Source: a virus. From it: a stretch of 58,610 nt of DNA. The stretch covers positions 1 through 58,610 of the IMG/VR virus record IMGVR_UViG_3300046007_005839; one strand, written 5' to 3'. This document shows, one piece after another, positions 15,722 through 45,040 of the stretch. The notes beneath the pieces were generated by a model. The model did not search any database. It was not told the origin of the DNA and worked only from the letters and a program-made list of their open reading frames with translations. Every line of letters begins with the position of its first letter. The first letter of the stretch is position 1. Position numbers and translations under genes: made by a program.

Positions 15722-17302
15722 TTAGGCGTTCTTCAGAGCGTTGACTTCAGCGGCCAGTTCTTTGATGGCGGCAACCAAGATGGGGACAACCTTAGATAGA
15801 TCTATCTGCTGAGCCTTAATGCTGCCGTCTTCGTTCACAGCATCTTTTTGTCCAACGACAGCAAGCGGGACAACAGCAGCAAGCTCGTGAGCAATGAAGC
15901 CTTCACCATCGGTTCCTGAATCTTTCCATTTGTAGGTAGAAGGTTTCAGAGCAGCGATTCGAGTCAACGCATTTGAAATCGGCTGAACATTTTCCTTCAG
16001 TCGATAATCCGAAACAGTACCATAAGTGATAGTAGTGTTGTTTGCATCTATTGAACCGCGAACAGTGCCGTTAGTGCAGAACGCAATGTGCGTATAAGCA
16101 GTTGCGCTAGAAACCGTCTGGTTAAAAGTTGAACCCCATTTTGCACCGCCGCTCCATTCATTAACAAACTGAGATTGGGTTCCTGCCGGAGCATTACTCG
16201 TCGTCCCCACCAACAGATTCCCGCTCGCGTCGAGCGTCATCGCTTGGGTGAAGGTGATGGCGTTTCCAGCGGTGCCGCTGGGGGCGTTTAGCCAAACATG
16301 AGAACCGGATGACTGCTCATAGGCAGTTGCTGCGCCAGTGATGATGTATTTGTTCGCTCCGTCATAAAAACGGTTGTTCGACAAATAAAGACCGCTCGAC
16401 AGGTTCCACAATGCGGCGGTGTTACCCACTTGGAACGCTTTTGTTCCAGCAGCCCACGCACTCGGCGTAACAGAAATGCCGACGTTGCCTCCAAGATCCT
16501 GAAGCACCAAGTCACGCGGACCATTTCCGGAGCCATTGTCGAACGAACTGATTGCAGCGTAGCGATTGGTAGCAGTCGCATCGGTCTTGATGCGGAAGAA
16601 AATGCCAAAATCGTCAGCATCGGTTGTGGTAATACCGCCAACAGTCGCAATCGCAGCGGTCGTCGCTTTAGTTCCCGACGATGCTTGGAAACGATACGAA
16701 GGAGTACGCCCCACGCCCAGCCCCGTGGAGTTCAGGGTCATGGCGGTGCCAGCGACTCCGCCGACGTTTGACCAAGTGGCTACGCCGTCGGAAGCGATGC
16801 GGTAGCGTTCAGTTCCGGCATTTGTGTTGAAAATAATCCCCTGCGATGTTCCTGACTGGAGATTCAGTATATTGCTTGCAACGAGTCCATCATAGGCTAA
16901 CGCAGTATTGACAGCGACGTTGTTGCTGTTGACTCGCAAAACAGGAGCCAGAGAAGTGTTGCTGTCGGAAACGATGTCAACCCTGCATCCGGGGGTCGTT
17001 GTTGCAACACCCACCCGATTGTTCGCCGAATCCACCTTCAGGGTCGACGTATCCACCGTCAGATCGCCGGTGATGGTGGCGGCTCCGACGGAAAGAAGAT
17101 CTGTAGTCTTGTTATACGTCAGACCAGCGTCGCCTCGCAAAGTACCCGCATCATTAAAAATGATCTGAGTGTTTGCACTATTGCCCGTCGTAGACGAGCC
17201 GATGTTAGTCTCTAGTACAGAGACTTGTTGCATGATCCGCTCAATAGCTTTCCTCAGAAGCCATGCGGAATCGCCTTTCGGCAATGTTGATAGAGAAGAC
17301 AT
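15722..17302 (-). CDS. Tail fibre with S74-type intramolecular chaperone (526 aa)
   Basis: A helical N-terminus (residues 1-40) probably binds the tail. A long Ser/Thr/Gly-rich beta shaft follows. The last about 100 residues carry SDYRLKENVQPISNALTRIA and IAHELAAVVPLAV, the signature of the peptidase S74 chaperone domain, in which the Ser at the start of the motif cuts the domain off after trimer assembly. It has its own sigma-54-type site upstream (17317-17330) and follows a terminator, so it can be expressed apart from the capsid gene. Confidence 0.9.
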   Translation of the reverse strand: MSSLSTLPKGDSAWLLRKAIERIMQQVSVLETNIGSSTTGNSANTQIIFNDAGTLRGDAGLTYNKTTDLLSVGAATITGDLTVDTSTLKVDSANNRVGVATTTPGCRVDIVSDSNTSLAPVLRVNSNNVAVNTALAYDGLVASNILNLQSGTSQGIIFNTNAGTERYRIASDGVATWSNVGGVAGTAMTLNSTGLGVGRTPSYRFQASSGTKATTAAIATVGGITTTDADDFGIFFRIKTDATATNRYAAISSFDNGSGNGPRDLVLQDLGGNVGISVTPSAWAAGTKAFQVGNTAALWNLSSGLYLSNNRFYDGANKYIITGAATAYEQSSGSHVWLNAPSGTAGNAITFTQAMTLDASGNLLVGTTSNAPAGTQSQFVNEWSGGAKWGSTFNQTVSSATAYTHIAFCTNGTVRGSIDANNTTITYGTVSDYRLKENVQPISNALTRIAALKPSTYKWKDSGTDGEGFIAHELAAVVPLAVVGQKDAVNEDGSIKAQQIDLSKVVPILVAAIKELAAEVNALKNA

Positions 17303-17314: not shown

Positions 17315-17332
17315 TAGCTGTCAGGTTGCCAA
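17315..17332 (-). promoter_or_regulatory. Sigma-54-type promoter before the tail-fibre gene
   Basis: On the minus strand the site reads TTGGCAACCTGACAGCTA: GG and GC separated by exactly ten bases (GG at 17330-17329, GC at 17318-17317). Predicted start of RNA is about 17305, only a few bases before the ATG at 17302. It lies just after the terminator at 17341-17400. Confidence 0.6.
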
Positions 17333-17934: not shown

Positions 17935-19233
17935 TCAGACGAAGAGCGACGGGGCGATCTGGCGGCGATAGATGATGGGGATGACGTTACGGTTGGTGTT
18001 GCCGATGATGCCGAGCACGGTGTCAGCGATCAGCTGCAAGAACTCACCGTACTTGTTGGTGTCGAGGTTGTTCGAACCGTAGTTGACCAGCACGTTGTCG
18101 GTCAGGCGCACTTCGCCATTCCAAGTGAGCTGGTTAAAGCGCTTGCCGTTGATCGAAGCGCCAGTGAACTCGCTGGGCGGCGGACCCACGTCGATCTGCT
18201 CATAGGCGTTATAGCCAATGAGGAACGCGACGCCGATCGGAGCAGCCGCATAAGCGGGATTGATGACGGTCTGACGCGTGGCATTCGGGGTCGAATAGCC
18301 GCTGTCAGGCAGCAACAGCTCGATCTCGGGCGCAGGCATCGTTCCGTCCTCAGCGAAGCGCAACGGATAGAACTCTTCGCGGAAGATGATGTTCGGCCCA
18401 ATAGCGCCCTGGAAGGAGCTATTCAGGAGGTTCATCGCCAGCGGCTTGGTGTTCAACACGTGAGTGTCGAAAGCGAGACCTTCATAGATCTCAGAGCCAC
18501 CGAGCAAAACGTACTTGCCCTTCGACATTTCATTGTCAGCCGGAGCGCCGCTCTGCATGCCTTCCATCGGCGGGATCATCAGGTAGTTCTTCGCGTAGGA
18601 AGCGACGGCCTGAATCTGTCGATAGGAGAGGAAACCGTTCTCATCGGAACCAATCTTGGCGGCCGCAGCGGCAACCCAAGCAGTGTCCTTGATCGCGCTG
18701 GTGTCGGTCGGCAGAGCAGCCGGGGCGTTCACCAAAGGCAGCTCGCCAGCGGTGGCATTGCCAACGATGTACACGAACGGCGAGTTCTGGAACACGTTGT
18801 CGCGCGTGAAGAAGTCGTAGCCGACAGCGATCTGCTTCGAGAGATCCTCAGCGGCAAACTTCAGCTGCTTCGTGCGGAAATCGCGGAAGCTAGGCAGGAA
18901 GTTGAACTGAGGAGATTCGAAGTTATGGCGCTTGACGCGGCTCTGATTCGTGCGCTCCCAAGTGCTCGCCACGGTCTTGAGCGGCAACTCGGTGATGTTC
19001 TTCGGGCGATGAACCTGATTGACGATCGGAGAGTTCTCCGCGATCACACCCTGCAGGATGTCACCCATGTTCTGTTTCCACTTGATCTTGGGAAACATGT
19101 CCTTCCAGCGCGACCACATCTGCATCTTCTTGGTCTGCTGGATCGCCATCCAGATCGGAAGGCGGTTGTAGTTAGCGATGTCTTGCTGATTCCAAAGGCC
19201 GCTTGAACGCGGCAAGTCCCATGTTGCTGGCAT
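17935..19233 (-). CDS. Major capsid protein (432 aa)
   Basis: From ATG 19233 it begins MPATWDLPRSSGLWNQQDIA. Text such as WKQNMGDILQGVIAENSPIV, TWERTNQSRVKRHNFESPQF and FFTRDNVFQNSPFVYIVG fits a large HK97-fold capsid protein. The position after portal and scaffold, codon use richer in G/C than neighbours, its own sigma-54-type site and a structured leader all fit a very abundant product. An earlier ATG at 19287 would place 18 residues of the hairpin region in the protein and is unlikely. Confidence 0.85.
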   Translation of the reverse strand: MPATWDLPRSSGLWNQQDIANYNRLPIWMAIQQTKKMQMWSRWKDMFPKIKWKQNMGDILQGVIAENSPIVNQVHRPKNITELPLKTVASTWERTNQSRVKRHNFESPQFNFLPSFRDFRTKQLKFAAEDLSKQIAVGYDFFTRDNVFQNSPFVYIVGNATAGELPLVNAPAALPTDTSAIKDTAWVAAAAAKIGSDENGFLSYRQIQAVASYAKNYLMIPPMEGMQSGAPADNEMSKGKYVLLGGSEIYEGLAFDTHVLNTKPLAMNLLNSSFQGAIGPNIIFREEFYPLRFAEDGTMPAPEIELLLPDSGYSTPNATRQTVINPAYAAAPIGVAFLIGYNAYEQIDVGPPPSEFTGASINGKRFNQLTWNGEVRLTDNVLVNYGSNNLDTNKYGEFLQLIADTVLGIIGNTNRNVIPIIYRRQIAPSLFV

Positions 19234-19378
19234 TGTTATACTTTCGTTTTTGTTTGATTCATCAGGGCAACAAAAAAGCCCTGACATCTCAAACGGTTAT
19301 TGGTTAGGTCTGTCCTAGCCGTAACCGCGTAGAGAGCAGAGCTTCTAGCGGAATCTCTCTGGGAGATTCGGTCTGACA
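19234..19378 (-). promoter_or_regulatory. Structured 5' leader of the capsid mRNA
   Basis: Between the predicted RNA start (about 19378) and the ATG are three stems in series: 19351-19357 with 19363-19369 (GAATCTC/GAGATTC), 19294-19299 with 19322-19327 enclosing a further seven-base helix (GGTTAGG/CCTAGCC, one G-T pair), and 19262-19268 with 19278-19284 (TCAGGGC/GCCCTGA). None is followed by a T-run on the transcribed side. I infer a role in mRNA stability or translation rather than termination. Confidence 0.55.
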
Positions 19379-19388
19379 TTCGTTGTTT

Positions 19389-19405
19389 TGCTAACGATAT
19401 GCCAG
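19389..19405 (-). promoter_or_regulatory. Sigma-54-type promoter of the capsid gene
   Basis: The minus strand reads CTGGCATATCGTTAGCAA with GG at 19403-19402 and GC at 19391-19390, ten bases apart. The -24 half TGGCAT is close to the sigma-54 consensus. The RNA would start near 19378, about 145 bases upstream of the ATG. Confidence 0.65.
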
Positions 19406-22867: not shown

Positions 22868-24640
22868 TTATTTAGAGGTTACGAATTTGTGATATTGCCC
22901 GCGCAATTGTTCACGCGGCTCAGCCGAATTTAGCGTTTCTTGTGCCGGTCTGTGAGTCATCTGACCCCATAAAAGCGTGAGTTCTGTCTTTTCATCAAAA
23001 GTTAACGCGCCTTTTTTATTCTTTTCAAGCAGCTCAGCAAACCTACTTTCGGGTTCTGTTGAGTGTAAAGTTTCTTCTTTAAAAACAGGCAACGGAACGC
23101 TGTCAAAACACAACGCCAACGCGTCTGCTCGATCGGGCGAAGATAAACCACGAGAGCGCATTTCGGGCTTGGGCTCTAAATACGTGACAATTCCCTTAAC
23201 CGAAAAGCCACGCGTGCAAAGTTGTTGGCGAGTGAGATCGTCGTTGATTGCAGGAAAGGCACGATCTTCAATAGCACGCTTAAGACGATTCCAGTTTTCA
23301 ACGCCTCTGTTCTTGTAGAAATTTGGGTTGGTTGAACGGGCTTCGTTTCGTACTGGCACGACGTCATAACCTGCATTTTGCACACGCTGCACGATGGGTC
23401 GTCCCAGACCGCCATCGTCAATACGTACTTCAGAGGGCGTAATGTTGAATTCCTTAATCCAACTGATGATCTGATTATGGAGAATTGCCTCGTTGCGAAT
23501 CTTTGTTGTTCGAAGGTGGAGTTTTCCATGGACAAAGAAGTACGCCACAGTCTCGTCGCCGCCGAGCGATAAGTCGATGCCCGCTCGATTGGGCAATCCA
23601 AACGTACGAGGTGAATTGTTTGGGTAATTCTCGAAGAGGGTGGATGGAATGAATGCAGCCTCGTCGAGTGAGGTAAACTCAGCCAAGACTTGGCTTCGAT
23701 AAATAAGGGATTGCTCGCCATGTTCGTCTTTAAGATGCTCGATGTGTTTGCCGAGAAGATGAGGACAATCGAATGCTGTGACACGGCGCCAATAGAATTC
23801 GCCTATTATTAAAGGATCTGGAAAGGTATATTTGGCTTTTGTGCAACGCTTGAAGAAATGGCCAGAGTTCTTACCGGGCGAAGAGATTTCAAGCCAGTAG
23901 TTATAACCTGTAAAGCGCGAGAAAGCTTGGAACATTTCGTCCGTGATTGATTTTGCCTCGTTGATGATCACAGCCATCTCGGCGCCGGGCTCGTCAAACG
24001 GGTGACGCCCTTCGGCTTTGCCGGGGTCATCTGTCACGAAGCATTTGATCTCGCTGCCTGTGTCATTACAAGTGATCAAGAACTCAACGATCTCAAAGAC
24101 CTTGCGGCCATACGAGACATTGATCTCTTCGCATATGTTTTTTATGTACTTATACGTCTGATCTTTAAGCTGCTCGTACGAAGATGACGTAATGACGCAT
24201 CGAGAACGGACTTTGGAAAGGCAAAACCAGACAGCGAAGGCGCTAATAACGACCTGATCTTTTCCGCTTCCGTTGGCCGCGACAAGATTGTAGTATAGCG
24301 GCGTCTTGTCGGTTGGTCGAGTTTTAGGCAGATCGAGATCATTGATGTCTGTGTATCCTGCGAGTTGAAATAGGGTTTCTGCTTGCCACTTGTAGAGCTT
24401 TAGGTCGGGCCGATGGGCGAGCAGAAGATCCGCGGGCGTGTCGATTTGATGCGCGATGTAGCGTTTGTTGACTGGAGTTTGCTCGGCTACAACGACAGCC
24501 TCAGGCGCCTTAGCCGGAGTCTCGACGGCTTTCTTTTTGGCGGCTTTTGCGCGCTCTTTTTCAGCAGCTTTTTCTGCCTCCAGCGAACGACGGGCCTGAA
24601 CGAGCTTTAGTGTGTCGGGCGAGATTGGGGCTTTGATCAT
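22868..24640 (-). CDS. terL: Terminase large subunit (590 aa)
   Basis: The ATPase domain has a Walker A-like ANGSGKD at about 122-128 and a Walker B followed by the catalytic Glu in AVIINEAK at about 223-230. The C-terminal RNase H-like nuclease has GIDLSLGGDE (first Asp near 356) and RIDDGG (second near 408). An extra Lys/Ala/Glu-rich helix of about 50 residues sits at the N-terminus. It drives DNA packaging through the portal and cuts the concatemer. The start overlaps the small-subunit stop by four bases. Confidence 0.95.
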   Translation of the reverse strand: MIKAPISPDTLKLVQARRSLEAEKAAEKERAKAAKKKAVETPAKAPEAVVVAEQTPVNKRYIAHQIDTPADLLLAHRPDLKLYKWQAETLFQLAGYTDINDLDLPKTRPTDKTPLYYNLVAANGSGKDQVVISAFAVWFCLSKVRSRCVITSSSYEQLKDQTYKYIKNICEEINVSYGRKVFEIVEFLITCNDTGSEIKCFVTDDPGKAEGRHPFDEPGAEMAVIINEAKSITDEMFQAFSRFTGYNYWLEISSPGKNSGHFFKRCTKAKYTFPDPLIIGEFYWRRVTAFDCPHLLGKHIEHLKDEHGEQSLIYRSQVLAEFTSLDEAAFIPSTLFENYPNNSPRTFGLPNRAGIDLSLGGDETVAYFFVHGKLHLRTTKIRNEAILHNQIISWIKEFNITPSEVRIDDGGLGRPIVQRVQNAGYDVVPVRNEARSTNPNFYKNRGVENWNRLKRAIEDRAFPAINDDLTRQQLCTRGFSVKGIVTYLEPKPEMRSRGLSSPDRADALALCFDSVPLPVFKEETLHSTEPESRFAELLEKNKKGALTFDEKTELTLLWGQMTHRPAQETLNSAEPREQLRGQYHKFVTSK

Positions 24641-25194: not shown

Positions 25195-25212
25195 AAGCTT
25201 TTAAGATGCCAG
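25195..25212 (-). promoter_or_regulatory. Sigma-54-type promoter of the terminase/late operon
   Basis: The minus strand reads CTGGCATCTTAAAAGCTTT with GG at 25210-25209 and GC at 25198-25197, ten bases apart. RNA would start near 25185, at the ATG. It is the only good promoter candidate I see for the late operon on this side. The repeat array at 25313-25462 lies about 103-252 bases upstream. Confidence 0.65.
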
Positions 25213-25312: not shown

Positions 25313-25462
25313 GATACGTAGGAGTGTGATGCATTGAGCTGTGATGGGTAGAACATGGATGCATAGGAGTGTGATGCATTGAAGAGGGATGCATTGGAGT
25401 CTTAGGGATAGAAGTGCAAGGAATTGCGCTGTGATGCATTGCAGAGGGATGCATTGAGGTGC
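25313..25462. repeat. Ten 15-bp direct repeats upstream of the terminase promoter
   Basis: Units start every 15 bases: 25313, 25328, 25343, 25358, 25373, 25388, 25403, 25418, 25433 and 25448. Six begin GATGCAT (a palindromic ATGCAT core) and most continue TTGRAG. Two neighbouring units (25403, 25418) are degenerate. Distance and direction fit an upstream activator (enhancer) array for the sigma-54-type promoter at 25195-25212. The minus strand is also open across it as pentapeptides of the form (S/T)xMH(P/H), so a coding origin is an alternative. Confidence 0.75.
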
Positions 25463-29052: not shown

Positions 29053-29068
29053 TGGCACTTCAAGAGCT
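29053..29068 (+). promoter_or_regulatory. Sigma-54-type promoter before the 215-aa gene
   Basis: TTGGCACTTCAAGAGCTT begins at 29052 with GG at 29054-29055 and GC at 29066-29067, ten bases apart. TTGGCAC is the consensus -24 half. The RNA start would be about 29079, 100 bases upstream of the ATG. Placed directly after a terminator. Confidence 0.7.
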
Positions 29069-29178: not shown

Positions 29179-29826
29179 ATGAGCACTAAGAACCTCGAAC
29201 TCGTCGCCTCCTTTGCCGGTAGCGTGTTCCAATCCGACGCCGACGGCAATCCTATCTTCGCCACGAGCGAGCGTCATGTCCGTAAGACTGCCAAGAGCGC
29301 AGAGCGCACCGTGTCGTTTCAGAAGCCCGTCTTGGCTGTGAGCGATCTCGCTTACTACATCAAGCGCGGCGAAGCTCTCGCTGAGATCCCGACCGAGCAC
29401 ATCACCAAAACCAAGAACGAAGACGGCTCGACGACCGAGACCAAGCGCATCTCGAATGCTCTCAGTGACTTGGTCGCCGATCATCTCAATGATATCGCCG
29501 AAGATGCTTCTGAGGCCTATCTCAGCAAGGGCAATACGCCCGATTACTTCGCCGCCTTTATCTACGGTGTCAGCGCCGACCGTGAGACTGAGAAGTCTGT
29601 CCTCAAGAAGATCGAGAGCATCCGCTCGGAGATAGGCTCCATTGTGTTCGCTCTCGCTGGCGAGTGGAACGACGACACTGCGCGTTCGTTGGGCGTGAGC
29701 GACAAGGACGCTGCGATCGCGAAGCAGTCCAACCTCATCGCCTCTCTGGCCCAGCTTCTCGCCAAGGCCAATGAGCTCAATGCCGCGAAGGCCAAGCGCG
29801 AGGCCAAGAAGACTGCGAAGGTGTAA
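29179..29826 (+). CDS. Probable highly expressed protein, single-gene unit (215 aa), unknown function
   Basis: The protein begins MSTKNLELVASFAGSVFQSD; it is Ala/Glu/Lys/Ser-rich and helical in its second half, ending in a Lys/Ala-rich tail (NAAKAKREAKKTAKV). Codons are much more G/C-ending than in nearby genes, as for the capsid gene and the gene at 40515. It has its own sigma-54-type promoter and a terminator right after it, so I infer an abundant product. It could be DNA-coating, but no family is recognised. Confidence 0.8.
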   Translation: MSTKNLELVASFAGSVFQSDADGNPIFATSERHVRKTAKSAERTVSFQKPVLAVSDLAYYIKRGEALAEIPTEHITKTKNEDGSTTETKRISNALSDLVADHLNDIAEDASEAYLSKGNTPDYFAAFIYGVSADRETEKSVLKKIESIRSEIGSIVFALAGEWNDDTARSLGVSDKDAAIAKQSNLIASLAQLLAKANELNAAKAKREAKKTAKV

Positions 29827-29863
29827 TTTGTAGGAGTAATCAAAATACTCAACAAACAACAGA

Positions 29864-29900
29864 GCCTCTGTGGGAGCAATCTCACAGAGGCTTTTTCTTT
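29864..29900 (+). terminator. Rho-independent terminator of the 215-aa unit
   Basis: GCCTCTGTG (29864-29872) and CACAGAGGC (29883-29891) form a perfect nine-base stem followed by TTTTTCTTT. Confidence 0.9.
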
Positions 29901-29913: not shown

Positions 29914-29938
29914 TTTTGGCATCCCACAGGTGCCAAAA
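29914..29938. promoter_or_regulatory. Palindrome next to the rpoN promoter, possible operator
   Basis: TTTTGGCA (29914-29921) and TGCCAAAA (29931-29938) form a perfect eight-base inverted repeat with a nine-base centre. It ends two bases before the -24 half of the site at 29940. Each arm itself contains TTGGCA. It could be a binding site for a regulator or an extra contact for the sigma factor. Confidence 0.45.
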
Positions 29939-29939
29939 T

Positions 29940-29956
29940 TTGGCATACTTTAGGCT
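29940..29956 (+). promoter_or_regulatory. Sigma-54-type promoter of the rpoN operon
   Basis: TTGGCATACTTTAGGCTC has GG at 29942-29943 and GC at 29954-29955, ten bases apart. The RNA would start near 29967, 23 bases before the rpoN ATG. If real, the phage sigma-54 gene is transcribed by sigma-54 holoenzyme, a feed-forward loop that host RpoN could start. Confidence 0.65.
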
Positions 29957-29989: not shown

Positions 29990-31282
29990 ATGAAATTCTC
30001 TCTCTCAATAAATCAAACTCAGAGTCTTATTCTGAGTCCACAACTCCAGCAATCTCTCGCGCTTCTACAAGCTCCTCTCTGTGAGCTTCATACCCTGATG
30101 GAGTCTTTCGTCGGAGATAATCCGTGCGTTGAACTCCTTGACCGAGAGATGCCTGAAGAAGAGATCTTGTTTAGGAATGACAAAGCAGAACTTCCACAAG
30201 ACATGCAGTGGACTTCTTCTTATAACCTTCCACCCAAGGAAGAATATCCGTTGGAGAATAACCCATCGCGCGGAGAGACTCTTGAAGAATACCTTGAGAG
30301 GGAATTGACAATCGCTTCTCACGATACGAGCATCATCCATCTACTCGACGAGCGGGGATTCTACATGGGCGATCTTGATAGCCTCACAACCCCACAAAGA
30401 GATGCTTTGCGTTTTATCCGCACTCTCGAACCAAAAGGCCTAGGCGCTTTGGGATTAGCAGATTGTCTTTGTCTCCAGCTAGATGAGAACTCACTAGCCT
30501 ATCGCATTCTTCAACAAGACGAAGACTTATTCACGCGCCGTCAGATTCCTCTCTTAAGCAAAAAATACAACGAGACCTTCACGACCATAGAGAATCTTTA
30601 CAAGTCTCTAGCAAAGCTTAAATACAACCCAGCCATAGAGTTCTCTGCCCCAACGCACACGCCAAAAGATCCAGAGATCTTTCTCGACAAAGATCTCACG
30701 ATCACGATCCCGAACGAGCGATTGCCTGTCTACAAAATCAATCAAGGCTATCTAAACTATCTCGATAAGCTCTCGCCGCAAGACAGAGAATACATCCGAG
30801 AGCGCGTAAAGCAGGGGAAGTTCTTGATTCGCTCGATCATGCAGAGGCAAAGCACTTTGTTTAATGTCACAAAGGCGATTGTAGATTATCAATCTGAGTT
30901 CTTCAAAACCGGAAATATCAAGGATCTCAAGCCTCTCATCATGGCGCAGATCGCCCTCGTGTGTGAGATCCATGAGACCACTGTCTCCCGCGCGGTCCAT
31001 AACAAATACATAAGCACACCAAAAGGGACATATGAACTTCGCTTTTTCTTCACCAGCGCAATCATCAACCATGAACAAAACACCATGCAGAGTAACCTAA
31101 GCATTAAGAATCAGATCGCAGAGATCATCTCGCGAGAGGACAAGTCTCGCCCTTTGAGTGATGAAGATATCGTTGTCCTATTAAAGAACACCATCGCTCG
31201 CCGCACAATCGCCAAATACAGAGCCGAACTAGGCATTCAACCATCTCACTTAAGAAAAGTCTATGCCTCCTCTTCAAAATGA
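29990..31282 (+). CDS. rpoN: Phage-encoded RNA polymerase sigma-54 factor (430 aa)
   Basis: All three RpoN regions are present. Region I: LSPQLQQSLALLQAPLCELH at about 15-34, the activator-responsive part. Core-binding domain: GLGALGLADCLCLQL at about 150-164 (bacterial form GVGA..L.ECLLLQL). DNA-binding part: HETTVSRAVHNKYISTPKG near 328-346 and the RpoN box ARRTIAKYRA at about 403-412 (bacterial ARRTVAKYRE). At 430 residues it is a little shorter than E. coli RpoN (477), mainly in the acidic Region II. It directs RNA polymerase to -24/-12 promoters, and opening then needs an AAA+ activator, encoded at 35089. First gene of an operon reaching at least 35937. Confidence 0.95.
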   Translation: MKFSLSINQTQSLILSPQLQQSLALLQAPLCELHTLMESFVGDNPCVELLDREMPEEEILFRNDKAELPQDMQWTSSYNLPPKEEYPLENNPSRGETLEEYLERELTIASHDTSIIHLLDERGFYMGDLDSLTTPQRDALRFIRTLEPKGLGALGLADCLCLQLDENSLAYRILQQDEDLFTRRQIPLLSKKYNETFTTIENLYKSLAKLKYNPAIEFSAPTHTPKDPEIFLDKDLTITIPNERLPVYKINQGYLNYLDKLSPQDREYIRERVKQGKFLIRSIMQRQSTLFNVTKAIVDYQSEFFKTGNIKDLKPLIMAQIALVCEIHETTVSRAVHNKYISTPKGTYELRFFFTSAIINHEQNTMQSNLSIKNQIAEIISREDKSRPLSDEDIVVLLKNTIARRTIAKYRAELGIQPSHLRKVYASSSK

Positions 31283-31940
31283 AAACGAAGAAACAATCAC
31301 GAGCGAAGCCCTCTGGGGATTGCTCTTCCCAGCCTGTGCCTGTCATGTCGATACAGAGCGAGGTCACTTCATCCGACGAACTGCAGGGAATAATCTTGCC
31401 CATGCGATTGTTGCTACAAATGAAACAGCGGAGTGGGTCAAGGCTCACTGCGCAGGTGAGCATATCCATATACAGAGAATCGACGAAGATGGTCTCAGCT
31501 ACAGCGTCATCTGGGACTCGACCGAATGGAACCTTTCCGACGAACGCAGAAGAACACTTCGTGCAAACCACCTTGCCTCTGACATATCATTCCTCCATAA
31601 AAAAGCGCAGGAACTCAGGATCGAAATGATCGCCGACGCTTTATCAAAAGCTAAGTTATTCAACAAACAAAAAGCCTTCGAAGTAGCCGCCGCGATCACA
31701 TCGCAGGGCGAAGAAGTCTATCTCAATAAATCCCGCCAGCTCAACGACGCCCTTCGCGGGGCATTCAACAATATCAACTGTTACTTTCCCATTGAAGAAG
31801 TTCTCCGTATAGTAGACACAAGAAACATCCTAACCTATGAACAAAGCCCTACAACAGAAGACAATCAAAGAATCACTGCGCTTGAGGAAGAAGATGGACG
31901 CGGCCACGAAGAAGAACGTCCTGTTGAGACAGAAACTTGA
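31263..31940 (+). CDS. Unknown protein overlapping rpoN end (225 aa)
   Basis: Begins MPPLQNENEETITSEALWGL, with a mixed N-terminal domain, a helical middle (NKQKAFEVAAAITSQGEEVY) and an acidic low-complexity tail. It overlaps rpoN by 20 bases and the next gene by 104 bases in another frame. No family recognised. The tight link to rpoN leaves open a regulatory role. Confidence 0.6.
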   Translation: MPPLQNENEETITSEALWGLLFPACACHVDTERGHFIRRTAGNNLAHAIVATNETAEWVKAHCAGEHIHIQRIDEDGLSYSVIWDSTEWNLSDERRRTLRANHLASDISFLHKKAQELRIEMIADALSKAKLFNKQKAFEVAAAITSQGEEVYLNKSRQLNDALRGAFNNINCYFPIEEVLRIVDTRNILTYEQSPTTEDNQRITALEEEDGRGHEEERPVETET

Positions 31941-32142
31941 AGATGAGATGCTTTCTCTCCAGAAAAAACTAACCCCACTTCTTAACAAACGCGACGCGAT
32001 CAACAAGTGCTACACGCAACTTGACAAACCCACCGCGGAGAGTATCGTGTTCGGAGAGTACATCTCTCTTATCTCCCGCACGCCACAAGCATACGGCTTC
32101 AAGAACGCCGAAGAAGTGATCGCGAAGTTGATGGACCTATAA
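31837..32142 (+). CDS. Coiled-coil protein (101 aa)
   Basis: The first 55 residues are Lys/Leu/Glu-rich heptads (KESLRLRKKMDAATKKNVLL). The end is a small fold with GEYISLISRTPQAYGF. It starts within the preceding gene and ends eight bases before the helicase gene. Function unknown. Confidence 0.55.
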   Translation: MNKALQQKTIKESLRLRKKMDAATKKNVLLRQKLEDEMLSLQKKLTPLLNKRDAINKCYTQLDKPTAESIVFGEYISLISRTPQAYGFKNAEEVIAKLMDL

Positions 32143-32149
32143 TAACATT

Positions 32150-34318
32150 ATGAACATATTCTCAACGCCAAGCGGAGTAAAGAAAGCTCCTGTTCAAACC
32201 GAACAATATACAAGCAAAGAGGACAGACTACAACAGACCGCCCTCACGACCGCAAGATCGCAGGCGAAGAAGCTCACTGACCTCTATCGCCGTGAGCCTT
32301 TTGAGTGGGAGTTTCTGCAGCGTGAATTGAATCTCGCCACTATCCCATCCATCAAGCTCGACTATGCCACGCTGCTGGGGTTTCTACAGGGCTGGGTTAA
32401 TCAAGCGCCCTTGCGCCAACAACGAGAAGCTATTCGCCTCGCCGAGGAGGCCGCTCTTCGAGAAAAAAGAACCTACAGCACAATCGACATCAAGCTCCCA
32501 AACGGCCTAGACTTCAAGCCCCAGCAGAAGAAAGCTATCGCGGCCTTGCTCGATGTCTTGTACAAAGACAACCTCAACGGCGCACTTGTCCCACTCGGCA
32601 CCGGCAAAGGTAAGTCATGGATCGCCGCTGGTCTCGCACTGTGGCTACAGAAGCATGATCCGCAGAAGTTCTGTAACTTTCTCGGTCTCTTTCCGCCCAT
32701 CCTAATCATCACCAAGAAGTCTGTGGTGCTAGACTTCAGAGACACTCTCAAAAAACTAGGCCTTGAATCTGTCGGACTCGCTGTCGATGTATGGTCATAC
32801 AACGAAGTCTTCTCTACGAAGAACAAGAACTTCTTTAAGGAAGAAACCACGGAGATCTTCGGTCAGTCCACAAAGGTCATTCGTTTCAATCTCCCAGAAC
32901 AAGCAGCACCAAGACTCATCATTCTCGACGAGTGTCAAGAGATCAAGAAGGAGAAGTCAAAGCGCACTAAATATCTCGAAGCATTCCTTCAGTTCCCATC
33001 TATCAAATGGGTCTTCACATCGGCCACGCCCGCGGTCACAGTATGGGACACGATGTTCATGACCCTCGCAATGGGTGTGACTTATGGCGCTCGCCATGTC
33101 TCACGGGAAACCTTTCCCGAATTTGCACGCACTCTAACTCTCGGAGCAGATCCCCGTCAAGCTAACGCGGCCGCCCTCGAACGCTGGGGCGCAGCGATTG
33201 GGGATCGCTTTGTCAAGCCGCCGGGCGATCCTCAAAAGGTCAAGGCTCTTAACAAAGTCAAACTCTTCGAGATCACCGACGAGGCCAACAAGAACATGCT
33301 CAAGAACGCGATGAAGAATTATCTTGAGGCATTGGAAAGAACAGGCCGCTCAATAGATCCACAAGGTCAAGTCATGGTCGCCTTCATGGTCATGGCCCGA
33401 GCGGCAGAGCTTGCGACCGTAGACACATGGGTCGCCGACGCAATTCATGCCCATCAAAACGGCTACGCGCCAGTCATTGCCATTCGTTTCGTCGAGACTC
33501 TGAAGGAGCTTGTGATGAAGCTCTGTGAGTCTGAGTATTTCAAGAGTAAGAACCTCACAAAACAAAAAATCTCTCTAATCTGGGGCGGCAATCGAGAGAT
33601 CAAGCCCGAAGAACTCTTGCCCGAGACACGCGCCGCAGAGATCGCTGCGAAGATGGGCATGTGGATTCTCGACAATCCAGACGAGGCCCGTAAGCCTAAA
33701 GCAGATGACATCGGCATCACGAAGGAAGAGTTCCGCTCATTCCATAAGGGCATCAAGTACACCTCGGAGAGAATCTTCCGAGAGATGACGAAGGATGCAT
33801 TCGCCGCGAGGAATGAGAAGCTTCGAGAGATGAAGCTACACAATCAGAACCAGAAAGAACGCCACGAAAACGTGCAAGACTTTCTCAACGGCGCGACTGA
33901 GTTCTGTATCTATACCTTGTCAAGCGGTGGCACAGGTATCTCGCTCGACCATCGCTACGCCCACACTCGGCCGCGTGATGTCATGAGCACGATGACTTAT
34001 TGGGCAGAGGAATTTGCACAGGCACTTGGTCGCTGCGTGCGTATCACCACACTCACCGACACACGACAGAGTATCTATGTTCCCGAAGGCACAATCCTCA
34101 GCGACCACATGGCGCCGAAGTTGGCGAGGAAACTCAAGTCAGTCGATGCCATTGGCTCATCGAACGTGGACCTTGCAGGCGAGCTAGAGAAAGCCCTGCG
34201 CGACAAGGCCACTGTGATTAAACTAACCGCCGAAGATCTTACAGCCTCCGAGTCTTCAGGCGTCGTCGAGGTGGAGGAAGAAGATGACGATGAAGAAGAA
34301 CTTGTAGAGACTAACTAA
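32150..34318 (+). CDS. SF2 helicase (strawberry-notch-like, 722 aa)
   Basis: Motif I PLGTGKGKS near residues 148-156, motif Ia LIITKKSVVLDF, motif II LDECQ at about 259-263, motif III TSATP at about 290-294, motif V SSGGTGISL and motif VI QALGRCVR in the last 130 residues. The DECQ/GTGKGKS forms and the GTGISLDHR motif resemble the large phage SF2 helicases related to strawberry notch. Predicted to move on or unwind duplex DNA during replication or transcription. The acidic C-terminal tail is unusual. It is in the rpoN operon. Confidence 0.85.
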   Translation: MNIFSTPSGVKKAPVQTEQYTSKEDRLQQTALTTARSQAKKLTDLYRREPFEWEFLQRELNLATIPSIKLDYATLLGFLQGWVNQAPLRQQREAIRLAEEAALREKRTYSTIDIKLPNGLDFKPQQKKAIAALLDVLYKDNLNGALVPLGTGKGKSWIAAGLALWLQKHDPQKFCNFLGLFPPILIITKKSVVLDFRDTLKKLGLESVGLAVDVWSYNEVFSTKNKNFFKEETTEIFGQSTKVIRFNLPEQAAPRLIILDECQEIKKEKSKRTKYLEAFLQFPSIKWVFTSATPAVTVWDTMFMTLAMGVTYGARHVSRETFPEFARTLTLGADPRQANAAALERWGAAIGDRFVKPPGDPQKVKALNKVKLFEITDEANKNMLKNAMKNYLEALERTGRSIDPQGQVMVAFMVMARAAELATVDTWVADAIHAHQNGYAPVIAIRFVETLKELVMKLCESEYFKSKNLTKQKISLIWGGNREIKPEELLPETRAAEIAAKMGMWILDNPDEARKPKADDIGITKEEFRSFHKGIKYTSERIFREMTKDAFAARNEKLREMKLHNQNQKERHENVQDFLNGATEFCIYTLSSGGTGISLDHRYAHTRPRDVMSTMTYWAEEFAQALGRCVRITTLTDTRQSIYVPEGTILSDHMAPKLARKLKSVDAIGSSNVDLAGELEKALRDKATVIKLTAEDLTASESSGVVEVEEEDDDEEELVETN

Positions 34319-34323
34319 AACAT

Positions 34324-34608
34324 ATGAGCTATGAATGGAAACCAACAGGTGGCCCTAAGTGCCCGGGCTGTGGCCAACTGGAAACAATAAATCAATACAA
34401 GCATATCCAATGGCGCTGTGGATCTCGATGGACTGATGACGAGAAGACAGACTTCCTACAATCAAACCGCTGTCAACGCTATGAACTCGACACCTTGCAC
34501 GCAAAGATAAAACAACTATCAGACAACATCGAATCATATCAAAAAGAAATCAAACGACAAGAAGCGTTCAAATATATACCTCCAGTCGGTATAAGATTAA
34601 AGGACTAA
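34324..34608 (+). CDS. Zinc-ribbon and coiled-coil protein (94 aa)
   Basis: Residues 12-50 contain CPGCGQLETINQYKHIQWRC and a later Cys, a probable zinc ribbon (CxxC...C...C). The second half is a helical coiled coil (LHAKIKQLSDNIESYQKEIK). It starts in the shared AACATATG context. Confidence 0.6.
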   Translation: MSYEWKPTGGPKCPGCGQLETINQYKHIQWRCGSRWTDDEKTDFLQSNRCQRYELDTLHAKIKQLSDNIESYQKEIKRQEAFKYIPPVGIRLKD

Positions 34609-34617
34609 CTAAAACAT

Positions 34618-34935
34618 ATGCCCCTAAAAAAATCAACACACATCACACGCAGCAACTATTATCTCACGCTCGAAGAGAAACTAAAGATTCGAGACTACAT
34701 CCACGCACATCCCGGCATGCCTTATCAAAAGATCGGCGATCACTTTGGGATCTCGCGGGGCACAGTATCAAACATCAACCGCATTCCTTATCATAAGGAA
34801 CACTACGAGAAGATGATCTTTCAGTTGACGAATCATAACAACATTATCTCTGCAAACATGGCGGCAATGGGTAGACAAATCATATTACTAAAAAGAAAGC
34901 TACAAGAATATGAGCAAGTTCCACCAGCGCGGTGA
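34618..34935 (+). CDS. HTH DNA-binding protein (105 aa)
   Basis: Residues about 16-52 read LTLEEKLKIRDYIHAHPGMP then YQKIGDHFGISRGTVSNINR, a standard helix-turn-helix of the kind found in HTH-only phage proteins and transposase N-termini. A helical tail follows. It lies two genes upstream of the sigma-54 activator ATPase, so it could supply the DNA-binding function the ATPase lacks. Confidence 0.65.
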   Translation: MPLKKSTHITRSNYYLTLEEKLKIRDYIHAHPGMPYQKIGDHFGISRGTVSNINRIPYHKEHYEKMIFQLTNHNNIISANMAAMGRQIILLKRKLQEYEQVPPAR

Positions 34936-35092
34936 ACAATACGTTAGTAAATACAAACTCGGCTCGCTCGACGAGGAGTATCTTAACAGAGAAGAGATGG
35001 CCGCCGCGCGCAAGGCTATCATGAATTACAAACTAAAAGATCCCGGGCCGTCTTTGTATAGAAAGAAACCTAAGAATAAAAAGAAAAAATGA
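34910..35092 (+). CDS. Small basic protein (60 aa)
   Basis: Begins MSKFHQRGEQYVSKYKLGSL and ends with a Lys-rich tail (KKPKNKKKK). It overlaps the HTH gene by 26 bases and the activator gene by four. Function unknown. Confidence 0.5.
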   Translation: MSKFHQRGEQYVSKYKLGSLDEEYLNREEMAAARKAIMNYKLKDPGPSLYRKKPKNKKKK

Positions 35093-35937
35093 ACATCCAC
35101 GCAAACGTCCTTAACACCGCAGCCGCCGACAGCTTCCTCGATAACATCCGCAAGGATGTCCTCAAGATCACAGGCGATGCGCTGAAAGATAGCAGTATCC
35201 ACAACGTCGCATCATGCTATGCCACGCAAGACCCAGCGACTAAGAGAATGCTCACGGCCGCAATAACCTACGCCGAAGAGAGCCTTCAGAAATATAACGT
35301 CTTGATTGAGGGACCTTCAGGTACGGGTAAGGAGTTAGTTGCAAAGATCCTTGCCCACAAACGCAAGCCTCTAAAGGCTATGAACATGGCTGGCTTGACT
35401 GATACACTCTTTCAAAGCGAGCTCTTTGGCTACATGCCCGGTGCATTTACCGGCGCTAAATCAAGAGGCGACGTGGGCTTTCTCCGTGCAGTCGGCAAGG
35501 GCACTGCTTTCCTCGACGAGATAGGCGAGTTGCCATTGGCACATCAAGCAAAGTTGTTGCGTGTGTTGCAGGATAAAACCGTATTGCCCGTCGGGGCTGT
35601 TGATCCTGTGCCGATTCAATGTAGGTTTGTCTTTGCGACAAACAGAGATCTCCTCAAGATGGTAAAAGAGGGGAGCTTCCGAGAGGATCTTTACTTCCGA
35701 ATCAACGAACTCGGACTGAAGACTTTCTCTCTACAACAAAGAGGTGTGCAGGAAATCCGCTGTGTCGCCTCGGCGATTATCACAGAAGAAAACTGGACAC
35801 CTCTCGGCGAAAGGGAACACTTCGGCGACGAGACATTCTCCTTTGGGAATGTACGGGCGCTGAGAAACTTGCTACTCAAACGTGAACTTGGGGAACTAGA
35901 ACTACCTGAATATGAAACCTTTAACAAACTTGACTAA
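35089..35937 (+). CDS. Sigma-54 activator AAA+ ATPase (282 aa)
   Basis: Walker A GPSGTGKE at 75-82, the sigma-54-contacting loop GAFTGA at 118-123 (in GYMPGAFTGAKSRG), Walker B FLDE at 141-144, sensor I FATNRD at 182-187, arginine-finger region FREDLYFRI at 197-205 and sensor II GNVRALRN at 253-260. These make it a bacterial enhancer-binding-protein ATPase that opens sigma-54 promoters. The protein has only about 60 residues before the AAA+ domain, with no recognisable receiver, PAS or GAF domain, and stops 22 residues after sensor II, so the C-terminal Fis-type DNA-binding helix-turn-helix is missing. Residues 211-250 are short compared with the usual lid. Confidence 0.95.
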   Translation: MNIHANVLNTAAADSFLDNIRKDVLKITGDALKDSSIHNVASCYATQDPATKRMLTAAITYAEESLQKYNVLIEGPSGTGKELVAKILAHKRKPLKAMNMAGLTDTLFQSELFGYMPGAFTGAKSRGDVGFLRAVGKGTAFLDEIGELPLAHQAKLLRVLQDKTVLPVGAVDPVPIQCRFVFATNRDLLKMVKEGSFREDLYFRINELGLKTFSLQQRGVQEIRCVASAIITEENWTPLGEREHFGDETFSFGNVRALRNLLLKRELGELELPEYETFNKLD

Positions 35938-36800: not shown

Positions 36801-37003
36801 TGAAAGAAGAAACTAAATGGGTCATCAATCCCGAGTGGGAAAAACTTGGACCAGAACACGACATACACTTTCCATGCCTTGATCCAAACGAGTATCAAGA
36901 ATTTAACATAGGCCCCGAACCACAAAATCTACAGTGCAAATCTTCCTCCCATATCCCGACATCGAACAAAGCGCCCGCGTGCTCGACACCCAGCGCCTCA
37001 TGA
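36800..37003 (+). CDS. Small unknown protein (67 aa)
   Basis: Begins MKEETKWVINPEWEKLGPEH. It starts at the stop of the previous gene and its last 23 residues are read in another frame from the next gene, where the sequence becomes low-complexity Ser/Pro. The first 45 residues look protein-like, the last part less so. Function unknown. Confidence 0.45.
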   Translation: MKEETKWVINPEWEKLGPEHDIHFPCLDPNEYQEFNIGPEPQNLQCKSSSHIPTSNKAPACSTPSAS

Positions 37004-37347
37004 AGCAGCGCGTCGAGTCTCTTCAAATCCTCAACACCCTGCAAGGTAAGTCAACTGGCTGGCGCAGTCATCCCGCTGTGCGCATGGTAAAGAACTATCC
37101 CGCTTGGCTCTGTCTATACTCCATCAAGATCTGCCAAGAAGCTCGCCGCCGGGGCTATCAAGATAATCTACTTCCTCATTTCGAGAAAGAGATCCTAACA
37201 TATCCTTACATCATCCAGCCTCATTGGCTCGGCTCTTATCTACACAAGACACATCAGAGTAATCTGATCCGCAAGAAAGCAGACTATTACAGACCACACT
37301 TTCCAAATGTCCCCGATAACCTGCCATACTTCTGGCCACCGCTATGA
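36934..37347 (+). CDS. Pyrimidine-dimer-glycosylase-like protein (137 aa)
   Basis: MQIFLPYPDIEQSARVLDTQ then RLMKQRVESLQILNTLQGKS and WRSHPAVRMVKNYPAWLCLY match the phage/bacterial MSMEG_6728-type family (MQTFLPYPDF..SAxxLDxxRLxKQRVExxQIL...HPAVxMW) annotated as pyrimidine dimer DNA glycosylase. The role would be repair of UV damage. The family function is inferred by others from distant similarity to T4 endonuclease V, so activity is not certain. Confidence 0.75.
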   Translation: MQIFLPYPDIEQSARVLDTQRLMKQRVESLQILNTLQGKSTGWRSHPAVRMVKNYPAWLCLYSIKICQEARRRGYQDNLLPHFEKEILTYPYIIQPHWLGSYLHKTHQSNLIRKKADYYRPHFPNVPDNLPYFWPPL

Positions 37348-40200: not shown

Positions 40201-40461
40201 ATGAGCATTGAAACTATCGCACCTGTCGCATCTAACTTACCTTTCGTAGAAAAGGAACGCATCGACATTCGACTCTGCCTCACAATCAAGCGTAACCCAC
40301 AGACGGGCGAGACTAAAGCATATGTCAATCAACTAGACCTCACTAACTATGATGGTCTTGTTGATAATGTTCCTGAGTTCCTTAACGCATTTGAATTAAG
40401 GTACGGTATAAATCAAATCATATCGGCCGCAAAGAATCATCTATCAAACGTGGCCCAATAA
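40201..40461 (+). CDS. Unknown protein between Sak4 and ssDNA-binding genes (86 aa)
   Basis: From ATG 40201 it reads MSIETIAPVASNLPFVEKER, then IDIRLCLTIKRNPQTGETKA. Its start is four bases after the Sak4 stop. The last codons overlap the sigma-54-type site at 40450. Probably a recombination accessory by context. No family recognised. Confidence 0.6.
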   Translation: MSIETIAPVASNLPFVEKERIDIRLCLTIKRNPQTGETKAYVNQLDLTNYDGLVDNVPEFLNAFELRYGINQIISAAKNHLSNVAQ

Positions 40462-40466
40462 AAGCT
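40450..40466 (+). promoter_or_regulatory. Sigma-54-type promoter before the probable ssDNA-binding gene
   Basis: GTGGCCCAATAAAAGCTC with GG at 40452-40453 and GC at 40464-40465, ten bases apart. The next bases are CCTCC, as at 45026-45046, where almost the same block stands. RNA would start near 40477, 38 bases before the ATG. Confidence 0.55.
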
Positions 40467-41187: not shown

Positions 41188-42618
41188 ATGATAGCCCTCG
41201 TTCTCCATGGACCTTCGCGATTTGATAAAGAAAACAACGGTATCCTTCTCGGACCCGCCGGAGATTTTGTTCGTTCTGTGTTGGCTAATTATAATATTGA
41301 CTTGGATAATCCATCTGATCTTTTTATAACATTCGCAGATGATTTTTTCAAAGGAGCCAATAAGCCAAGCGGCATCAAGAAGATAATCTTCGCCGGGGCC
41401 AAAGCCTTAGATTATCTCCCGCTTGCGAAAGGTAAATCTCTCGATGCTTTTCGCGGCGTCGTCTATCTCTCTCCAAACAAAACACAATACATAGTAACCT
41501 ATTGGCCCCAAGATTGTGTGGACGCGTGGGCTATGGAAGATTCTTTGGAAGATGCCTTAGAAGGCGAAGACATCCTAGATAAGGATGATGGAAAAAGCAC
41601 AAGCCCCACGAAGCGCAGTAACTACTCTTTCTGGTTCGCACAAGACATCAAGAAACTCCTAACTTATGACCCCGAAAAAGTTCAACCTGAACCCCAAACC
41701 GTCATCTGTCAACGCGCCGCCGAATGCACAAGTGTCTTCGACTTCGAAGGTCCAATCTTCTTCGACATTGAGACCCATCCAAAGACCAACACACTCACCT
41801 GCTTGGCCATTGCGTGTGGCGAGAGTCCTGTCTATTCTGTTCCTGTGTATGATTGGGGCGGCAATCTTAATGTCGGTGTGGTTTTCTTTGCTCGCTTCAT
41901 TAGAGAACTAAAGAAACGCCGTGTCGTAATCCACAACGCCCTCTTCGACCTATGCTTCCTCGCCGCCTTCTACAAGATCCCTTTCGGCCATGACATCTAT
42001 GACACCATGGTCGCAGGCCATCGAATCTTTCCGGAGGCTGAGAAGTCTCTGGCCCATCAAGCCACTCTTTACAGCAACAGACCCTTCCATAAAGATGAAG
42101 CAGGAAACTTTGATCCTCGCAATCGAGCACAATTTGAGCAGCTCCGCGCTTACAACGTTAAAGACGTTATTGTCCTCCGAGAAATTTACTATGGTCAAAT
42201 TAACCTCATCCGAAACGACGCTGGACTTCAAGACTCTGTCGATCAAGCCAGTCGATCTCTCGCAGACTACGCCTTCATGTCCCTCCACGGAATGCACTTC
42301 GATCCTGTCAAGCGCGGATACATCGTACGACGCTGCGAAGAACGCTATAAGCAGTTAAATAGAATCCTCAAAATCCTCGTCGGCTTCGACCTTAATCCCG
42401 GCAGCCCGGATCAGGTCGTGAAGTATCTGCATCAGCAGTTAAGATACAAGCCCGAGAAAACAACAGACAAAGGCGCGCCGAGTGTCGCCGGGGATGCGCT
42501 TTATAAGATCAAACTCAAGCATCCGAAGAACGTCGCCATCGACGTAATCTTCGAGATGCGTCGTATGGTTAAGCTGAAAGGTATGTTAGGATTTCAACAG
42601 TGGATTTGGGAATATTAA
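41188..42618 (+). CDS. DNA polymerase family A, N-terminal piece with UDG-like and 3'-5' exonuclease domains (476 aa)
   Basis: Residues about 1-160 resemble a uracil-DNA glycosylase superfamily fold (GPAGDFVRSVLANYNID, IIFAGAKALDYL, RGVVYLSP). Then the proofreading domain: DIET at 193-196 (Exo I), NALFDLCFL at 249-257 (Exo II), YNVKDVIVL at 322-330 (Exo III). The rest (SLADYAFMSLHGMHFDPVKR to MRRMVKLKGMLGFQQ) is the thumb start of a Pol I polymerase. The protein stops before the palm. The missing palm and fingers are in 44029-45021, after two unrelated genes. Probably the two pieces assemble. Confidence 0.9.
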   Translation: MIALVLHGPSRFDKENNGILLGPAGDFVRSVLANYNIDLDNPSDLFITFADDFFKGANKPSGIKKIIFAGAKALDYLPLAKGKSLDAFRGVVYLSPNKTQYIVTYWPQDCVDAWAMEDSLEDALEGEDILDKDDGKSTSPTKRSNYSFWFAQDIKKLLTYDPEKVQPEPQTVICQRAAECTSVFDFEGPIFFDIETHPKTNTLTCLAIACGESPVYSVPVYDWGGNLNVGVVFFARFIRELKKRRVVIHNALFDLCFLAAFYKIPFGHDIYDTMVAGHRIFPEAEKSLAHQATLYSNRPFHKDEAGNFDPRNRAQFEQLRAYNVKDVIVLREIYYGQINLIRNDAGLQDSVDQASRSLADYAFMSLHGMHFDPVKRGYIVRRCEERYKQLNRILKILVGFDLNPGSPDQVVKYLHQQLRYKPEKTTDKGAPSVAGDALYKIKLKHPKNVAIDVIFEMRRMVKLKGMLGFQQWIWEY

Positions 42619-43483: not shown

Positions 43484-44026
43484 ATGTTCACAAAAAACCT
43501 ACCCAAGCATCTCTACCTAAACGTAGACACAGCTTTCACACATAAACATAAGCAAGGCTACATGCCTGCGATATGGTTCGCCATAACCTCAACGCCCGGC
43601 CGCGCATGGGGCTGTCATGTATTGCTAGAGAACGGAGCGATCTATCGCAACCTTCCGCTCCATGCGCTATACTTCGGCTCTGATATACTCCCCAGCGAAT
43701 GGCCTCTTGAACAATCTCAACGCTGGGATTGCTATGGTTGGAACTTCGAGACCATTGAGTACACTTATCTTCGCAGCCAGCGTTGTATGGCTAATTGCGA
43801 TGGTGACTATTATCACGGCGACTATCTCTTCACCGCCGCGCCCTTCGACGACGGCTTCAGTGACGATCCCGAGCAAAACAAAGAGTTCCTCTTTATCAAG
43901 CTCGACAACGGGCGCATCACCGCACAGCCCACGAATAAAGTCATGATCCTCGACGATAGCTTTCACAAAGCTATGGACTGGCCATCGGATCTGAAAGTCT
44001 CTAAAGAGGTTTATTCTTGCGAATAA
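43484..44026 (+). CDS. Unknown protein inside the split polymerase region (180 aa)
   Basis: Begins MFTKNLPKHLYLNVDTAFTH, rich in aromatic residues and Cys (RSQRCMANCDGDYYHGDYLF), with beta-rich character. It overlaps neither the ligase nor (with start 44029) the polymerase C-piece. No family recognised. Confidence 0.65.
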   Translation: MFTKNLPKHLYLNVDTAFTHKHKQGYMPAIWFAITSTPGRAWGCHVLLENGAIYRNLPLHALYFGSDILPSEWPLEQSQRWDCYGWNFETIEYTYLRSQRCMANCDGDYYHGDYLFTAAPFDDGFSDDPEQNKEFLFIKLDNGRITAQPTNKVMILDDSFHKAMDWPSDLKVSKEVYSCE

Positions 44027-44028
44027 CT

Positions 44029-45021
44029 ATGCCCACTCCACACATCCACTGCCTGACCTCGCTTAAGGTCGCCGGGACAGGAAGCTTTCGTCTAGCCTCT
44101 GGACAATTCCTAGGCGACTACGGAGCGAATCTCCAGAATCCCGACAAAGAAGCTCTCGATATCTACATCGCCCCGCCGGGGATGACATTCGTACAGTGCG
44201 ATCAAAGCGGCGCCGAGGCTCTTATCGTCGCCAACCTTACGCGACCGGGGCGTTATAGAGAACTCTTCAACGTGGGCATCAAACCTCATACCTTCATCGC
44301 GCTGCATATCTTCTGCGAGCAGATGCAGAACGAATGGCCTCTCGCGGGGAAGTCGCCGAGTTATTGGAAAAGCTTAAGTCCGACAGAACTCAAGAAAGAC
44401 CCCGATTGGAAACCTCTCGACAAAGCAATCAAATCCTCCGACAAGGAATACAAGATCGGCAAGATGGTCTGCCATGCTTCCTCCTACAGAATGCGTGAGC
44501 GGACCTTTCAACTTCAAACCCTCAAGCAGAGTCATGGCACTCTTACCCTCAGTCTCCAAGAATGCAAAGTCTTCCTTGGCTTCTTCGCGTCACTGTTTCC
44601 CGAAATCATAGAATGGCAAGATGAAATTGAATTTCAGATTAGAACTAACCGTCAGCTCCGTAATCTGTTTGGATATCCACGCAGGTTCGAGCGTACTATT
44701 ACTGACTCTTATATCAGGGAAGGCATCTCGTGGGTTCCTCAGTCCACCGTGGGCTGTATCACACACCTCGCAGTCAACCGCTATAACAACGAGCGACCGC
44801 TCAAAACATTACCGGCGATTAACAATAAACATGACTCTTTTCTGGCGCTGGTTCCAGATGGGATTGTCAACGACACGGCGAAGCTCATGCAAGAATGCCT
44901 CGCGATCTCACTTACCGGCCGAGACGGAGTGAACTTCACCATGAAATCTGAGGCCCAAGCTGGAAAGAACTGGGGTAAGTATTTAAAAGAGAATCCCAAC
45001 GGCATGAGAGACCTCGCCTAA
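44029..45021 (+). CDS. DNA polymerase family A, C-terminal palm/fingers piece (330 aa)
   Basis: The first residues hold GTGSFRLASG and GANLQNPDK, the counterpart of TGRLSSxxPNLQNIP in Pol I, so the break lies just before this element. Motif A is CDQSGAEALIVANL (Asp for metal), motif B KIGKMVCHASSYRM (O-helix), motif C INNKHDSFLALVP (usual form VHDE; here KHDS with Ser in place of Glu). ATG 44029 is preferred to 44017, which overlaps the previous gene. It needs the N-terminal piece for a complete enzyme. Confidence 0.9.
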   Translation: MPTPHIHCLTSLKVAGTGSFRLASGQFLGDYGANLQNPDKEALDIYIAPPGMTFVQCDQSGAEALIVANLTRPGRYRELFNVGIKPHTFIALHIFCEQMQNEWPLAGKSPSYWKSLSPTELKKDPDWKPLDKAIKSSDKEYKIGKMVCHASSYRMRERTFQLQTLKQSHGTLTLSLQECKVFLGFFASLFPEIIEWQDEIEFQIRTNRQLRNLFGYPRRFERTITDSYIREGISWVPQSTVGCITHLAVNRYNNERPLKTLPAINNKHDSFLALVPDGIVNDTAKLMQECLAISLTGRDGVNFTMKSEAQAGKNWGKYLKENPNGMRDLA

Positions 45022-45023: not shown

Positions 45024-45040
45024 TCGGCCCAAGAAAAGCT
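45024..45040 (+). promoter_or_regulatory. Sigma-54-type site before the DUF3987-like unit
   Basis: TCGGCCCAAGAAAAGCTC with GG at 45026-45027 and GC at 45038-45039, ten bases apart. RNA would start at about 45051, next to the ATG at 45052. The block GGCCCAA-x-AAAAGCTCCCTCC is shared with 40452. The first half (CGGCCC) departs from the TGGCAC consensus. Confidence 0.45.

Follow-up and report, generated by a model that had tools for sequence, protein, structure and literature searches.

Genome and gene content

The stretch of DNA analysed here, referred to as the window, is the full IMG/VR record IMGVR_UViG_3300046007_005839, a linear sequence of 58,610 bp in which two divergent gene arms can be distinguished. 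The plus-strand arm, at about 26–47 kb, contains a gene for a sigma-54 (RpoN) factor (29990–31282) and one for an AAA+ sigma-54 activator (35089–35937), together with genes for a helicase, a PD-(D/E)XK nuclease, a Sak4-like annealing protein, a family A DNA polymerase in two genes, an ATP-dependent ligase and a primase. The minus-strand arm contains the terminase large subunit (22868–24640), which was identified by tblastn to annotated terminases, with the best matches in Akkermansia phages, the probable major capsid protein (17935–19233) and a tail fibre with a Peptidase_S74 chaperone (15722–17302). The capsid protein was assigned by position and conservation: it is 93–100% conserved, its start codon was placed by comparison with relatives and it matched no family. 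The protein scans recognised no phage RNA polymerase.

The DNA polymerase is split into 41188–42618 and 44017–45021, with the ligase and another gene in between, and the split is also retained in a distant phage lineage, G404. A gene for the repair of UV damage lies at 36934–37347 and encodes a pyrimidine dimer DNA glycosylase (Pyr_excise, 1.7e-24). The terminal regions of the record, 1–9317 and 49280–58600, share six genes and show 81% identity over 9.3 kb. Since the relatives are 49–51 kb long and have a single copy of this end region, and one of them has a 127-bp terminal repeat, the end repeat probably arose where strain variants of a circular or permuted genome of ~49.3 kb were assembled with an overlap, and not by gene duplication.

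The sigma-54 gene

Searches with the Pfam sigma-54 models matched all three domains of the 430-residue product of ORF 29990–31282 (plus strand), namely Sigma54_AID at residues 4–49 (45.5 bits; Pfam cut-off 23.8), Sigma54_CBD at residues 89–254 (70.4 bits; cut-off 22.9) and Sigma54_DBD at residues 267–423 (164 bits; cut-off 22.8), and the NCBIfam RpoN equivalog model TIGR02395 was matched with 290.9 bits, above its cut-off of 277.35. The alignment to the solved E. coli RpoN runs end to end over residues 1–423 of the phage sigma (2e-42), and the RpoN box, ARRTIAKYR, lies at residues 403–411. With region I, the core-binding domain and the DNA-binding domain with its RpoN box all present, and with a dN/dS of 0.11, which indicates purifying selection, the ORF is, as judged from its sequence, a complete sigma-54, as the initial annotation had held, and its product is expected to bind the host core RNA polymerase.

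The sigma-54 family had no match in PHROGs, and only 15 INPHARED records matched the phage sigma by tblastn; these appear to be contigs of bacteria that were entered as phage. In IMG/VR, 21 further relatives were found at 75–98% identity. The pattern scans of IMG/VR may overlook divergent RpoN genes, so that further phage groups are possible. Bacterial contigs seem to account for most rpoN matches in 'phage' records, and host rpoN on bacterial or prophage-flank contigs for four other IMG/VR matches, as would be expected if the gene in the window were a bacterial contaminant or the product of a chimeric assembly. This explanation is given next to no probability: the same synteny recurs in more than 20 contigs, which also carry genes for terminase, tail fibre and replication, one of these contigs has a direct terminal repeat of 127 bp, and a second lineage has a 123-bp terminal repeat. 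These independent contigs led us to reject a contaminating bacterium as the origin of rpoN.

The activator and its neighbour

The 282-residue product of ORF 35089–35937 (plus strand) matches Sigma54_activat (2e-49) and solved enhancer-binding proteins (2e-35), and carries the motifs GPSGTGKE, GAFTGA, GTAFLDEIGE, FREDLYFR and GNVRALRN; the exact GAFTGA loop noted in the initial annotation is thus borne out. Within the AAA+ core, Walker A and B, GAFTGA, the arginine fingers and sensor II are intact, and the catalytic and sigma-contact motifs are invariant in 16 relatives. The dN/dS of 0.05 indicates purifying selection, and the activator is better conserved than the sigma. From its motifs and profile matches, the ORF is an AAA+ sigma-54 activator core.

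A DNA-binding domain was not found by domain searches, the protein stopping shortly past the sensor II helix, a feature that the initial annotation had overlooked; the protein P0004 is likewise without a DNA-binding domain. A C-terminal DNA-binding domain is usual, not universal, in bacterial enhancer-binding proteins. No known regulatory or sensor domain was found either; the N-terminal 48 residues are conserved, yet match nothing, and the lid is short. Predicted structures for the activator and the capsid-like protein were set aside (mean pLDDT 35.5 and 27.0, respectively).

Adjoining the activator gene, at 34618–34935 on the plus strand, is a small protein with a coiled coil and weak helix–turn–helix (HTH)-like matches. 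It is present in 26 of 27 records and is fast evolving, and might be a DNA-binding partner of the activator, a candidate role that we infer.

Pairing of the two genes across relatives

All of the main genes from the sigma to the activator lie on the plus strand, in accordance with the co-directional block described initially. Each of the 22 family contigs with at least 4 kb ahead of the activator carries the sigma gene as well, at a distance of 4.1–5.9 kb, and the five family contigs without the sigma gene have less than 3 kb of room there.

A second phage group (L203–L205) was found with mixed phage and bacterial sigma alignments. Its member G404, of 52,003 bp, has a 123-bp terminal repeat and is therefore regarded as complete. 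It encodes a full sigma-54, 33% identical to that of the window, and a 282-residue activator with GSFTGA, 43% identical to that of the window, in which again no DNA-binding domain was found; its sigma gene is placed differently, among Sak4-like and polymerase genes. On the basis of these genomes, the sigma and activator are under selection and conserved as a pair in phages.

Conserved -24/-12 sites

Sites of the form GG-N10-GC, typically TTGGCAY-N5-AAGCT, were found ahead of several genes in both arms. On the plus strand, TGGCATACTTTAGGCT lies ahead of the sigma-54 gene (29941–29956; conserved in 20/20 contigs) and TGGCACTTCAAGAGCT ahead of ORF 29179–29826 (29053–29068; 17/17 contigs). On the minus strand, TGGCATCTTAAAAGCT lies at the head of the late arm (25196–25211), where the strict form is present in five of 11 contigs and the GG-N10-GC form in all 11 (listing read by eye), TGGCATATCGTTAGCA lies ahead of the probable major capsid gene (19389–19404; 9/9 contigs) and TGGCAACCTGACAGCT ahead of the tail fibre gene (17316–17331; 9/9 contigs). 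The sites at 25195 and 19389 named in the initial annotation are the downstream ends of the minus-strand sites 25211–25196 and 19404–19389, and are conserved in relatives. Two further -24/-12-like sites on the plus strand have a GGCCCA...AAGCT version: TGGCCCAATAAAAGCT ahead of ORF 40476 (40451–40466; all 20 distinct upstream sequences) and CGGCCCAAGAAAAGCT ahead of ORF 45052 and the primase gene (45025–45040; all 16 distinct upstream sequences).

The pattern TGGCA-N8-GC occurs seven times in the window, which is about the chance number, and five of these occurrences are directly ahead of genes. When the spacing was varied from 4 to 13, no other spacing yielded a gene with the site in every contig, and of 420 permutations of the letters, 411 likewise yielded none. 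A scan with a generic sigma-54 matrix gave nothing above shuffled sequences, because the -12 element of the phage is mostly AAGCT, AGCA or TGCT as opposed to TTGCA, and the signal emerged only through conservation. In G404, TGGCATACTTCCAGCA lies 161 bp from the start of the homologous capsid-like gene, the same place as the capsid site of the window (171 bp, if the true start is 19233), and neither the head of the late arm nor the sigma and activator genes of this phage are preceded by a clear site. The conserved sites are best read as putative sigma-54-type promoters ahead of the structural genes, the sigma gene and some replication-side genes.

The sites at 17316–17331 and 25196–25211 are 28–30 bp ahead of the start codons as annotated; if these are correct, the transcripts would have little or no leader. 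The capsid gene is separated from its promoter by a leader (19240–19390) that shows strong conservation and seems to be structured. In the divergent region, ATGCAT repeats, often spaced by 15 bp, form an array at 25329–25454 upstream of the late promoter; some relatives have other repeats (AACGTTA or different) in its place. Considered as enhancers, the ATGCAT repeats proved to be present in some of the relatives only and to show no correspondence with the type of HTH protein, and they are kept as a candidate origin or enhancer.

Control of the sigma gene

The sole recognisable promoter of the sigma gene is of the sigma-54 type and is directly preceded by an intrinsic terminator (29861–29894, plus strand); intrinsic terminators also lie ahead of the promoter of ORF 29179 and the fibre promoter. 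A palindrome, TGCCAA-N3-TTGGCA (29931–29945, plus strand), covers the -24 element of the sigma gene promoter, is conserved in aligned relatives and is a candidate autoregulatory operator. Since both sigma and activator are downstream of a terminator-insulated sigma-54-type promoter, the loop needs priming, and the first sigma and activator molecules must arise by read-through, from a promoter that escaped recognition or through host sigma-54 acting with a host activator. The self-contained switch proposed initially is therefore upheld as regards the matched sigma–activator pair and the promoters ahead of late genes, but self-containment and independence from host signals remain conjectural in view of the required priming, for which the host sigma-54 with a host activator is one possible source.

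The insulated promoter could also indicate that host sigma-54 reads the phage promoters, with the phage activator as the main driver and the phage sigma merely boosting the supply. The better conservation of the activator and the resemblance of the phage HTH region to that of host RpoN point the same way, but the phage sigma is intact and under selection in two lineages whose sigmas are only 33% identical, and we regard this arrangement as unlikely.

Origin of the phage sigma and probable host

Of the bacteria sampled, Verrucomicrobiota reach the highest profile scores (as much as 258 bits, compared with at most 204 bits in Planctomycetota and 208 bits in Pseudomonadota). The phage sigmas form one clade (support 100/95), which is placed beside or inside Verrucomicrobiota RpoN with support of 98/99 in one tree and with the main Verrucomicrobiota group with support of 97/87 in a second; these trees and the profile comparison cover three phyla sampled by best hits, and the phage branch is long. 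In the HTH recognition region, the phage sequence IHETTVSRAVHNKY nearly equals VHETTVSRAIANKY of Verrucomicrobiota RpoN.

This near identity means that host promoters might be read, and the phage sigma-54 might chiefly redirect host transcription, by sigma competition or by takeover of the host sigma-54 regulon, with the phage sites being secondary. We consider this improbable, and slightly more so than reading of the phage promoters by host sigma-54, as the phage promoters ahead of structural genes are conserved in all relatives and the phage -12 element is mostly AAGCT. The pattern TGGCAC-N5-AAGCT is not enriched in Verrucomicrobiota genomes, in weak counts that are too small for a firm statement on the -12 preference of the host.

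The best matches of the terminase large subunit are mostly in Akkermansia phages, at 27–30% identity. Shine–Dalgarno sequences are nearly absent from the phage genes (6/61), the starts being preceded by an A-rich, G-poor stretch, and two sampled Verrucomicrobiota genomes are likewise poor in them (7/48). Taken together, the sigma phylogeny, the terminase matches and the scarcity of Shine–Dalgarno sequences suggest that Verrucomicrobiota are probably the hosts of this group of uncultured tailed phages.

A proposed late-gene switch

The reading that we prefer, with a probability of about 0.8, is that the late genes of this tailed-phage group would be switched on by the phage's own sigma-54 and activator. 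It is based on the complete domains and motifs, the conserved pair, purifying selection and the controlled conservation of the promoters, as well as on the distant complete lineage with a sigma, an activator and a capsid-gene site and on the fact that no phage RNA polymerase was recognised in the proteins scanned. Against it are the chance frequency of the window sites taken alone, the partial set of sites in G404, the lack of identified enhancer sites, and the short lid of the activator and its lack of a DNA-binding domain.

In such a switch, the phage sigma would take the host core RNA polymerase and hold it as a closed complex at the phage promoters; the GAFTGA loop of the phage ATPase would then touch region I of the sigma, and ATP would open the complex. 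The late genes would be transcribed next, and the sigma and activator, lying behind a sigma-54 promoter, would amplify their own production once host sigma-54, an unrecognised promoter or read-through of the terminator had primed a first round. The timing would be set by accumulation of the activator and not by a signal domain, and the activator, being without a DNA-binding domain, may act from solution or via a partner, for example the HTH protein encoded next to it. Late-gene activation, positive feedback and ATP dependence are all predictions from the DNA. A fuller version, in which an RpoN taken long ago from Verrucomicrobiota, a sensorless activator free of DNA binding and a distinctive -12 element together form a self-amplifying, ATP-dependent, phage-specific late switch that is largely orthogonal to host sigma-54, is put forward tentatively, with the odds lying slightly against it.

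Comparison with known systems

Phage phi1422 has a gene for a sigma-54-type regulator (PMC3391216); only this sigma-54-associated regulator, and no sigma-54, is reported there, whereas the phage of the window has both. Gp2 of Pectobacterium phage Q19 was named sigma-54-like on an HHpred E-value of 0.67 (PMC7693777), and this phage is absent from the 15 INPHARED records matched by tblastn. No phage sigma-54/activator pair was found described in the open-access literature (subscription papers and preprints lie outside this scope), in 50,697 phage records or in PHROGs. This type of switch appears to be known so far from bacteria, and was not found described in phages. If the late-gene reading is true, it would be, to our knowledge, the first viral ATP-driven promoter opening. 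The phages would offer biochemists and synthetic biologists minimal sigma/activator/promoter sets of natural origin, as well as a direct test case for the timing and targeting of an activator without a signal or DNA-binding domain, and a handle on viruses of Verrucomicrobiota.

The phage sigma is like bacterial RpoN of the Verrucomicrobiota branch in its three domains, RpoN box and HTH region, but differs in its identity of 33–36%, long branch and shorter region II, in being encoded by a phage and in the -12 element, mostly AAGCT and not TTGCA. The activator shares the AAA+ core, GAFTGA, arginine fingers and sensor II with the NtrC/PspF family, but is without a receiver or other known regulatory domain and without a Fis-type DNA-binding domain, and, unlike bacterial enhancer-binding proteins, is encoded by a virus near its own sigma gene; FlgR and CtcC are natural enhancer-binding proteins without a DNA-binding domain. 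As far as we found, the phage sigma factors described to date belong to or imitate the sigma-70 family. The phage late factors T4 gp55 and SPO1 gp28 and gp33–34 are related to sigma-70 or sigma-70-like in action. The likeness to these would be that a phage factor steers the host core polymerase to late promoters, and the difference is that the factor described here is of the sigma-54 class and that opening would be driven by ATP.
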